Assembly (NCBI GenBank): GCA_021646405.1
Contig: SOER01000013.1
Location: forward strand, 1-64,000
Length of the DNA: 64,000 nucleotides
Direction: 5' to 3'
From: Candidatus Loosdrechtia aerotolerans
GTDB taxonomy: Bacteria > Planctomycetota > Brocadiia > Brocadiales > Brocadiaceae
In this document: one piece after another, positions 1 to 3,311 of the stretch
Position numbering within the stretch: position 1 is the first letter of the stretch
Layout: each line of letters begins with the position of its first letter
Notes under the pieces: model-generated
What the model saw: the letters and a program-made list of their open reading frames with translations, nothing else
Database searches by the model: none
What the model was told of the DNA's origin: nothing
Translations under genes and position numbers: made by a program

Positions 1-128
1 GCTTGCATGCCAAATTCTATCAGGCGGCTTTTGGTCTCTGATATTTCCAGGCCAAATTTCTTTAACCTACCTCCGAGGTCTCTCCATACTTTTTCTGCCG
101 CTTGCTTGTTTGTGCACCCAATAATGAG
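1..128 (-). pseudogene. 3' exon fragment of a reverse transcriptase (partial, runs off window)
   Basis: Read on the minus strand from 128 to 1, one open frame encodes LIIGCTNKQAAEK, then a stretch ending in KSRLIEFG. This is the segment that normally follows the catalytic YADD motif in group II intron-type reverse transcriptases (palm to thumb transition). It starts directly after the 3' end of the intron at 129-2010, so it is the downstream exon of an RT gene interrupted by that intron. The RLIEFG-type ending differs from the KIVYCKD-type ending of the intron's own RT, and the upstream exon (2012-2704) resembles the latter class. The two exons may therefore come from different RT genes. The rest of the gene lies outside the window. 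Confidence 0.6.
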
Positions 129-166
129 GTGAGTAGGCCGGTGGAACTTCCCCGCCAGCCCCTCGC

Positions 167-201
167 AGAACTGTACGTGAACCTCTCGACTCATACAGCT
201 C
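167..201 (-). ncRNA. Group II intron domain V hairpin
   Basis: Directly after the maturase stop codon the minus strand reads GAGCTGTATGAGTCGAGAGG, followed by a complementary arm ending in ACGTACAGTTCT. This forms the short catalytic hairpin of about 35 nt typical of domain V. The following GAGGGGCTGG...CCGGCCTACTC arms (about 166-129) form domain VI with an unpaired A as the likely branch point. This is a structure drawn by eye; no folding program was run. Confidence 0.75.
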
Positions 202-204
202 CCA

Positions 205-1452
205 TTATCCAACCGGTGACCCAAGACCCATCCTCCAGTGAACAAACAAATTTGGTTCTCGCCCTCTAATCTGGCCTAACCAATTTTTTGCCCGCCTTCT
301 ATGTCGCCTGAGTCTTTTGTATTTCCTTGTTGCCCAGCGTATCAGGTATATCTCAATGTTCCTGAGAGACGGATACATGGCAGATTTATAATATCGTCCA
401 TAATAGTTCACCCATCCCTGCACCTGAATATTGAACATCCTCGCCAGGTCTGTGAGGTTCTTGTCACTTCGAAGATGAATCTTCCAGCTTCGGATTTCTT
501 TCCGAATCCCCTTCGCTGCCTTGTTGCTGATTGCAGGGGTAAAGTTGACAAAGGTTTTACCATACTTGTTCTTCGACAACCGAGGCCGAAATGTGTATCC
601 CAGAAAGTCAAATTCTTCATGCTCATGCTTTCCTTTGCGATCAACATCCTTGCAGTAAACTATCTTTGTTTTCTCTGGATGCATCTCAAGACCACACTCC
701 TCTAAACGCTCCCTGATAGCCTCCAAAACCCTCTCTGCCTGACTCAACGATTGGCAATGCAACAGTCCATCATCTGCAAAACGCTCAAACTTCACAAAGG
801 GAAAGTGTCTTGCTATCCACTCATCAAACGCATGATGCATGAATATGTTGGCCAGTAACGGACTAATGACCCCTCCCTGCGGAGTGCCCTTATCTCTTTT
901 GACAAGCTGTCCATCTTTCTGCTGGAGTGGGGCTTTCAGCCACCTTTCCACATAAAGATGTATCCACTTCTCTTTTGTATGAAATCTGATCGCCTTCATC
1001 ATCAGGTCATGATTCAGATTATCAAAGAATCCCTTGATGTCCAAATCGATCACCCAGTCCTGATTCCAGCAGCGTTGTCTTGCTGTCCCAACTGCATCCA
1101 GGGCTGACTTCCCGGGACGATACCCGTAGGAGTCTTCATGGAACTTTGGGTCGACTATAGGTTCCAAGTGCAGTTTTACAACTGCCTGTGCTACCCGATC
1201 TGAAACAGTTGGTATCCCCAATAAACGAGTGCGCCCATCAGACTTTGGGATCTCTACTGCCTTTACTGGCGGTGGAAAATACGATCCTGACGACATCCTA
1301 TTCCATATCTTATAGTGATTGTCCTTAAGGTTCTTCTCAAAGTCCTGAATTGATTCTTCATCAATTCCATAAGTACCTTTGTTGGCCTTGACTCTCTCCC
1401 AAGCGACCATAACGCTTTTCTTGGAAATACTAAATGGTTTCATTTTACTCAA
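205..1452 (-). CDS. ltrA: Group II intron reverse transcriptase/maturase
   Basis: 415 residues, multifunctional intron-encoded protein that binds the intron RNA, helps it splice and copies it into target DNA. The RT fingers and palm contain GIPTVSDRVAQ, SYGYRPGKSA, GTPQGGVISPLLAN and the catalytic box FADD (F instead of the usual Y). The C-terminal maturase (X) domain contains QGWVNYYGRYY. The protein ends in a basic tail without an HNH endonuclease motif, so it is an En-minus type. The TTG start is favoured because GGGAGG lies about 7 bases upstream; an ATG follows three codons later. The stop codon is just before domain V, as expected for an ORF in domain IV. Confidence 0.93.
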   Translation of the reverse strand: MSKMKPFSISKKSVMVAWERVKANKGTYGIDEESIQDFEKNLKDNHYKIWNRMSSGSYFPPPVKAVEIPKSDGRTRLLGIPTVSDRVAQAVVKLHLEPIVDPKFHEDSYGYRPGKSALDAVGTARQRCWNQDWVIDLDIKGFFDNLNHDLMMKAIRFHTKEKWIHLYVERWLKAPLQQKDGQLVKRDKGTPQGGVISPLLANIFMHHAFDEWIARHFPFVKFERFADDGLLHCQSLSQAERVLEAIRERLEECGLEMHPEKTKIVYCKDVDRKGKHEHEEFDFLGYTFRPRLSKNKYGKTFVNFTPAISNKAAKGIRKEIRSWKIHLRSDKNLTDLARMFNIQVQGWVNYYGRYYKSAMYPSLRNIEIYLIRWATRKYKRLRRHRRRAKNWLGQIRGREPNLFVHWRMGLGSPVG

Positions 1453-2011
1453 TCAGTTCCTCCCAATTTTCTGGTTGGCTCATTAGTAAAACTGGATAAT
1501 TCGACCCCTTCGCTCCATTGGCTTTCACCAACTTCTTCACTACTACGGGTCGTTCCGCCCCTGATCCTCGTCTTGGTACTCTCACCCTTATGGTTCTGCC
1601 ACTTGGATTTCTCCCTTTACACCAAAGATCAGGTTCCCACGTTCCATATAAAAGCCTGAATCAGGTTCATGCCACCTCTATGCCGGAGACCATCTGGCCA
1701 ATAAACAGGTTTCCGCCAGATTTATCCCGGGTTAACGACTACCCCCCGGTTTCGATCCCGTTTATACGCTTTCGACACTTCCGCAGTGGTTCAATCACTT
1801 CATCTCCCTGATCCTCACCTGATGCCTTGTAAGACACCTTTTCTCTAACGCTCACTACCATAGCTTTTGACTACAGCAGCTTAGAGTGGTTTGAAGCCTC
1901 CTCCTGTAAGGCGGCTTCGGAGAGCCATCCTCCATCTCTTATATAGTTGCACACAAATTGCGTTATCTGATTATGGCTTCATATAACCCTTCTTTGTGCT
2001 CGTGGCGCACT

Positions 2012-2704
2012 ATCATCTGCGTACCTCACAAAGTTCACTTGCGGGTAGTTCTTGGATAGCCACACATCAAGCGTGAAGTGGAGGTAAAGGTTTGCAAGTA
2101 AAGGGCTTATTACCCCGCCTTGCGGTGTCCCTTTCCCATCTTTGAGGTGGAGTGTACCGCCTTGCTTTTGCACCGGCATCCTTAACCATCTCTCTACGTA
2201 CATCTTCACCCATTTCTCTTCCATTACATGTTCCACTGCTTTTATCATCAATTCATGGTCCATTTCATCAAAGAACTTGCTTATGTCCATGTCTATTACC
2301 CAGTCCTGCCTGTAGCAGTTCTCTCTGACCTGTTCTATGGCTTGATGTGCACTCTTCAATGGCCTATACCCATAAGAATTCTCATGGAAAAGTTTATCTA
2401 TTTTCTTCTCCATGTAGTCCTTCGCTACTTGCTGCGCTATCCTGTCTCGTAGTGTCGGTATCCCTAATTTACGCATGGTGCCGTCTTTCTTCGGTATTTC
2501 TACCTCTCTTACGGCTTGTGGATGGTAACTCCCAGAAGCCAGCCTATTCCAGATGACGTAGAGATTACCCGCTCTTTTCTTGTCAAACTCTCTCCAGCTC
2601 TCGTTGTCTATCCCGGCTGCCTTTCCACCCTTCTTCACCTTGTTGTATGCGTTTACCACCTGGCTGTACTCAATTGGTACTGTTTTGCATATGTGCGTAT
2701 TCAT
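2012..2704 (-). pseudogene. Group II intron RT, N-terminal part, interrupted at YADD
   Basis: 231 codons of a second RT/maturase of the same general class as the one at 205-1452. Recognisable boxes are GIPTLRDRIAQQVA, SYGYRPLKSAHQA, DMDISKFFDEMDHE, GTPQGGVISPLLAN and NFVRYADD. Reading on past YADD enters the inserted intron and stops after ten unrelated residues. As it stands the gene encodes only fingers and half of the palm, unless the intron is spliced out and the 3' exon is in frame. It lies downstream of its own intron RNA 5' region (2705-3266). The sequence is clearly related to, but not a recent copy of, the RT at 205-1452. Confidence 0.85.
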
Positions 2705-3266
2705 TTGTTAATCTTCCCACGAGAGATTTTTTTCCCTTACAAGGTTGTTGTAGTGAATCATGCACTGAATAACCTAAGCCCTTCGCTCCTTTCCGTTTTC
2801 ACGGATTATCATCACTCGTATGGCTTAGTCCGACTTCCGTTTCACGGCTTTTGCAACCGTTACCCAGAAACGGATATCCCGTGTTCTGTAATAAAGCCCA
2901 ACTTTAAGTCATGTCGCCTGTATAACGGTGGGCACATAGCCAGTAAACAGGTTTCCGCTATGCTTATCTCTGCATCCTTCGCACAATGCGATTTTGCCCG
3001 ACAACTTACGTGATTTCGTTACTTCTTCAGCGATTCATTTGCATTCATCTCTTAAAGTCATACTTGATGAGTTCTTCTCACCTTTTCCTCTATCCGTTCA
3101 CCACAGCAGCTTTACAGCTTTTGCAGCGTAGAGTAGTTTGACAACCCCGCCTGTACGGCGTTGCCGATACTTCACAATAGTTAGCGCTTCCACTGGTGTA
3201 TCATCTTTATTACAGCATGTTAAGGAACTTTGTCGTTCCTTTACTTCACGGCACAAGCGAAGGCAC
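2705..3266 (-). mobile_element. 5' RNA region of a second group II intron (3' part missing)
   Basis: Non-coding 560 bases upstream of the broken RT at 2012-2704. On the minus strand it carries features shared with the first intron's 5' region, such as the GCGGAAACCTGTTTA box and the GGAGCGAAGGG box just before the ORF. The probable 5' end is GTGCC near 3266-3262. The 5' boundary is uncertain because GTGCC departs slightly from GTGYG. Domains V and VI of this intron are not in the window: they are either beyond the left edge or lost. Confidence 0.55.
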
Positions 3267-3311
3267 AGAGAATAAAGAATGATGAAGGATAGAGTGTCAA
3301 GAATGGGGACA

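Follow-up and report, generated by a model that had tools for sequence, protein, structure and literature searches.

The window, a 64,000-nt stretch of a Candidatus Loosdrechtia aerotolerans genome (contig SOER01000013.1, positions 1 to 64,000; contig C4 below), begins at a contig end, and close to that end a group II intron, intron I, interrupts RT coding sequence on the minus strand. The features of the locus are listed from upstream to downstream on that strand; negative numbers count exon bases back from the insertion point, which is marked by a slash in the sequences quoted below.

3254, minus strand: 5' end of the O intron (GTGCCGTGAAG); same start in L052, L055-L061 and L064
3062..3173, minus strand: O intron D1-D4 (RF01999, 67.1 bits)
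2011..2704, minus strand: 5' exon, N-terminal half of the O RT, ending in YADD plus A (TIGR04416/RVT_1, partial)
2023-2012, minus strand: YADD codons of the O RT, within the 5' exon
128..2010, minus strand: inner group II intron I, class-D-like, 1883 nt (GTGCG, RF01999, RF00029, D6 and the empty site on contig C2)
1817..1933, minus strand: intron I D1-D4, the part modelled by RF01999 (D1-D4-2), 114.4 bits
1764..1769, minus strand: intron I EBS2, GCGTAT, facing -14..-9, GTACGC (Tyr-Ala codons)
1734..1740, minus strand: intron I EBS1, AGTCGTT, facing the Asp-Asp codons, with an A-A mismatch at -1
205..1452, minus strand: intron I IEP, an RT-maturase (RVT_1, PF00078; GIIM, PF08388; TIGR04416)
128..203, minus strand: intron I D5-D6 (RF00029, 57.7 bits)
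1..127, minus strand: 3' exon, where the C-terminal half of an X-class RT begins (IIGCTNKQAAEK...), cut off at the contig end

Intron I unites the D1-D4 and D5-D6 ribozyme domains of a group II intron with a 5' GTGYG and an IEP that carries RT and maturase domains, and it shares with class D (IIB3, RmInt1-like) introns an endonuclease-less IEP, a 7-nt EBS1-IBS1 pairing and an EBS2 lying past the -8 linker; a domain profile scan of the IEP found no endonuclease domain (HNH). The initial annotation placed the 5' end correctly, GTGCG at 2010 on the minus strand directly following GATGATA of NFVRYADD and adjoining AACTTTGTGAGGTACGCAGATGATA (NFVRYADD plus A). GTGYG was also considered as chance RT sequence, the uninterrupted RT of locus L027 reading GATGATAGTGTG, and this was rejected because the 5' ribozyme profile begins exactly at GTGYG. 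The 3' end, first given as 129, moves to 128, where the RF00029 match to D5-D6 stops; identity between the window flank and contig C2 starts exactly at 127, just past the intron. Relatives of intron I finish in CTACTCACC; in most, as in the window, three bases follow a CTACTC-type strand. In a Sinorhizobium meliloti relative (L103) a second, 100% identical intron copy begins directly after CTCACC. The RT frame across the junction is kept only with a 3' end at 128; an end at 129, with a Leu codon, loses the frame here and in the relatives, and both D6 and the empty C2 site point to 128. The predicted splice of 2010-128 would read GAT GAT A/TC ATT ATT GGG, in frame. The residues beyond the intron, proposed as LIIG, do continue an RT, but they start with Ile instead of Leu (YADD-IIIG) and belong to a different RT gene.

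The two flanks have separate origins. The O RT starts at 2704, reads to NFVRYADD and is interrupted one base on (A, 2011); this 5' flank is 90.5% identical in amino acids to the uninterrupted O RT of L060, from the same genus. The 3' flank matches the X-class RT at G000:C2:72447-72573 in 127 of 127 nt (100% over 41 aa). A plain twintron, in which intron I is enclosed by a single O intron and the O RT carries on in 127-1, would account for a joined frame that is open and reads as RT, yet O relatives go on DD-IVVHCTSKAEAEKVLE, only 43% identical over 37 aa to the window exon, and the exon's complete identity to the X-class RT leaves that arrangement a very slim chance. The C2 RT itself (G000:C2:72447-72982, near a contig end) reads YCDDFIIG and is followed by D5-D6; it has lost, in frame, a segment that starts at RT2 and stops immediately short of YADD, for which reason it was discarded as a further functional host. 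C2 carries an empty site, GATGATT/TCATTATT; the seven bases before the slash are identical to those pairing 7/7 with the same EBS1 in L024.

As far as its sequence can tell, the window copy is no intact twintron but a chimera produced by rearrangement, lying at a contig end: the nesting first described, which takes an inner intron within one outer intron, gives way here to two RT genes as flanks. The earlier observation is nonetheless real and partly confirmed, with its boundary corrected and its flanks found to be mixed. Since the 5' half is O and the 3' half X, excision would yield a chimeric O-X RT, and the outer element of this copy is probably not a working intron; its 3' part lies out of view because the window begins at a contig end. 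The mixture could have arisen as an assembly error, the intron residing in two RT genes and the assembler joining one 5' flank to the other 3' flank. Position 1 is the end of C4, and the stretch shared with C2, exactly 127 bp, resembles an assembly k-mer overlap such as would be expected at a de Bruijn graph junction. Such an error is nevertheless rather unlikely: no other contig of this 3.26-Mb, 99.4% complete genome has an end of intron I (the genome encodes hydrazine synthase, PF18582, which makes an anammox planctomycete very probable); a comparable copy with mixed flanks lies in the middle of a 626-kb contig of another genome (L105, below); and the error would leave the 20 other loci described next untouched, several of them from complete plasmid records. 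The single copy in this genome would thus bridge an O-class 5' half and an X-class 3' half, the likeliest route being recombination between intron copies or RT genes at two YADD sites. Upstream, O-family introns (window 3254-3300 and the loci that share its start) sit behind a dispersed intergenic repeat ending CTT or TTT, and the 43 bp adjoining the O start occur at over a dozen places in the window's genome.

Relatives were selected for their similarity to intron I or to its IEP, never for their target, with plasmid records hand-picked from the top of the match list. At YADD plus 1 nt, twenty further introns interrupt RT genes, which belong to several classes and come from at least four phyla; with the window the total is 21. 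The twenty are L024, L025 (whose host is degenerate), L045, L070, L077, L093, L094, L096, L097, L098, L101, L103, L106, L107, L108, L115, L116, L117, L120 and L122. Their hosts include Ca. Megaera polyxenophila, Vibrio parahaemolyticus, Bradyrhizobium elkanii, Alkalihalophilus pseudofirmus, Enterococcus faecalis, S. meliloti, Rhizobium, Peribacillus, Priestia, Sulfobacillus and Streptomyces, together with a Pseudomonadales MAG, a Desulfuromonadales MAG and genomes of the window's own phylum. At 14 loci besides the window, RT sequence lies on both sides and the joined frame is open across the junction, giving ORFs of 403-621 codons in 13 of the 14; the joined frame of L103 was computed after taking out two tandem intron copies. 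The host RT proteins are mostly 25-50% identical to one another. With 20 relatives found by similarity at the same nucleotide, insertion at YADD is, in sequence terms, more than chance, and the proposal of insertion exactly at the conserved YADD codons of a rival intron's RT holds across these loci and their cognate EBS1 and EBS2. Full twintrons, in which a complete inner intron is preceded by the D1-D4 of the outer one and followed by its D5-D6, occur at L070, L093, L096, L097, L098, L101, L107 and L115; by Rfam, the outer introns carry other ribozyme types (D1-D4-3, -5, -6 and -7) around an inner D1-D4-2, with two D5-D6 matches each. Twintron-like nesting is therefore borne out in other genomes, and the twintron/YADD reading fits the family better than the window copy that gave rise to it. 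The word competitors, applied at the outset to the hosts, is apt, as the four host RTs scanned match the group II intron RT/maturase family. As was also argued there, the insertion would break the host RT unless splicing is exact; since it lies one base past YADD, in phase 1, exact splicing would restore the host RT.

The guides of these introns are close to uniform. EBS1 is AGTCGTT in 17 of the 21 YADD introns and differs at one position in the remaining four; its hairpin was folded for eight introns, and the loop is open in most. Cognate EBS1 and IBS1 pair at 216 of 231 positions over 33 introns (permuted partners: mean 166, maximum 192 in 10000), a count for which the heptamers were picked by visual inspection of the aligned EBS1 loop, a choice that favours pairing, and which omits the introns at IS3 D-I/T, L074 and L102, where convincing EBS1 pairing was not found. 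EBS2 is GCGTA in 21 of 21, facing TAYGC of the Tyr-Ala codons, with one mismatch inside the five in L025; at that place it occurs in none of the 12 introns at other targets. The guides place G opposite the wobble base of the Tyr codon and of both Asp codons, where the exons have either C or T, and the unpaired -8 base is the third base of Ala (G, C or A seen). By computation, GCGTA and GTCGTT together pair with all 32 spellings of YADD, and with 4 of 32 if the three Gs are replaced by A. A mismatch to EBS1 at -1, as in the window (A in the 5' exon), recurs in L096, L097, L106 and L116. EBS2 GCGTA would thus read TAY-GC and EBS1 (N)GTCGTT would read GAY-GAY, with a G set opposite each two-fold codon position and the unpaired -8 linker falling on the four-fold Ala position; such degenerate guides would allow one intron to reverse-splice into RT genes of any class. 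Self-immunity of the YADD introns was considered, their own YADD being mostly followed by Gly or Ala codons that would give a -1 mismatch, and was dropped because many relatives at other sites are alike in this respect.

Comparison of introns with their hosts bears on how the shared position came about. Two plasmids of one Ca. Megaera strain, pPCS148 and pPCS201, carry inner introns 99.9% identical (1859 of 1860 nt) in host RTs whose flanks are 45% identical over 200 nt, the last ten exon bases being equal, and the introns of S. meliloti L103 and Rhizobium L120 are 98.7% identical with host RT flanks at 52%. Judged by these comparisons, the position at YADD would reflect homing. Descent, in which one ancient YADD intron was inherited as its RT hosts diverged, would suit intron and host families that are both old, but it is contradicted by introns this similar in RTs this different, and scarcely any weight can be given to it.

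Insertion has not been confined to YADD. Relatives with fitting EBS1 lie at WHLDE/V of an IS240/IS6-type DDE transposase (L099, L104), at KYADH/L of IS66 (L109, L118), at a conserved IS3 motif (L088) and in a DDE_3 (IS630-like) transposase (L121). A sister group lies directly after the RT codons G-x-P-Q (L037, L051, L105, L111), with 5' end GTGCGCTGCAGG and EBS1 TTGTGG. Its member at L105, 2210-3830 (G008:C3:461209-462829), sits at GMPQ/GG with an in-frame chimeric RT around it, the 5' flank from a non-class-D RT and the 3' flank 86% identical to the intron I IEP; on its sequence, its two flanks come from different RT classes, as they do in the window copy. Changes of EBS1 accompany changes of target (TGTCGTT/GATGACA, CTTCGTT/GACGAAG, GGTGGTT/GACCACC and GATCTGG/CCAGATC, guide before the slash and target after it): L115, for instance, has TGTCGTT with A at -1, and its close relative L122 AGTCGTT with T. 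L095 and L110, whose sites are not intact RT genes, show matching changes in EBS1 or EBS2. In L095 (2456-4325, Neochlamydia sp. S13 plasmid) the intron follows TATGCAGACTAAG (Y-A-D-stop), and EBS1 CTTAGTT and EBS2 GCATA fit the altered site. In an IEP tree built only among the relatives found here, without reference classes, the YADD introns are not one clade; the YADD label needs 7 changes, against a mean of 13 when shuffled, so that targets cluster but switch.

These patterns also speak to the idea that the YADD bias is a survival filter, with loosely specific insertion and with selection or splicing constraints removing the rest. A survey of intron and intein positions reported group II introns to lack a preference for conserved sites (PMC2814812), and the case for targeting is itself one of sequence comparison. 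Several findings go against a filter, which is very unlikely: the insertion falls on one and the same nucleotide in 21 RTs, EBS1 and EBS2 are cognate to the site, almost identical introns occupy unrelated RTs, and EBS1 changes along with new targets.

The preferred reading, at a probability of about 0.85, is that a widespread class-D-like (RmInt1-type) clade contains many introns that home to YADD-coding DNA by antisense guides, and that the window copy bridges O and X. It draws on the positions, frames, guide complementarity, distribution and mixed flanks described above, and would have reverse splicing, splicing activity and recombination as its steps. The odds are about even for a broader version: a bacteria-wide hyperparasitic clade, with a codon-degenerate antisense guide to the RT motif and sister groups at GxPQ and transposase motifs, that may invade nearly any group II intron, switch targets via small EBS changes and shuffle RT genes by recombination.

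Among the closest known systems is RmInt1, in which a 7-nt IBS1 (-7..-1) is separated from IBS2 by a linker nucleotide (PMC3123198) and which homes into an IS630-family element (PMC5894124). RmInt1/class D (IIB3) introns and the YADD introns are alike in their endonuclease-less RT-maturase IEP, their IBS1/linker geometry and their homing into mobile elements, and an S. meliloti plasmid intron (L103) falls in the YADD set; the canonical target of RmInt1 is ISRm2011-2 and close relatives, whereas the YADD introns occupy the YADD codons in many classes of group II RT. Nesting of group II introns is already known (PMC4424553, PMC2882425). Methanosarcina introns home into ORFs of other introns, and in the archaeon M. 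acetivorans as many as five are nested (Dai & Zimmerly 2003, as described in PMC4424553). In Thermosynechococcus elongatus (PMC2882425), twintrons such as TeI3c in TeI4c likewise show a group II intron at a constant site within other group II introns, but their inner introns are ORF-less and lie between two start codons of one intron family, neither at a catalytic motif nor across classes. Inteins and group I introns (PMC2814812) share the strategy of occupying codons under purifying selection; they use homing endonucleases in host genes, whereas the YADD introns use RNA guides, and the gene they enter is a selfish element too. A literature search, with most subscription papers outside its reach, found no report of YADD targeting. 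The clade described here would be a clear exception to the survey's conclusion, and the reason can be read from its guides, which are antisense to a protein motif and set G against two-fold codon positions while leaving the four-fold position unpaired. These would be selfish RNAs specialised on other selfish RNAs, whose intron-on-intron parasitism and target switching become directly testable, and the degenerate-guide principle may aid the design of intron-based targeting.

Natural twintrons are available for such work on plasmids of cultivable bacteria. Two of the rhizobial loci have unusual arrangements. One RT gene in L103 (2463-6184, S. meliloti pMl3) contains a pair of intron copies, 100% identical and in exact head-to-tail tandem, and in L120 (3820-5728, Rhizobium sp. 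T1470) D1-D4-6 and RT pieces follow the inner intron and replace the 3' half of the host RT, a rearranged flank.
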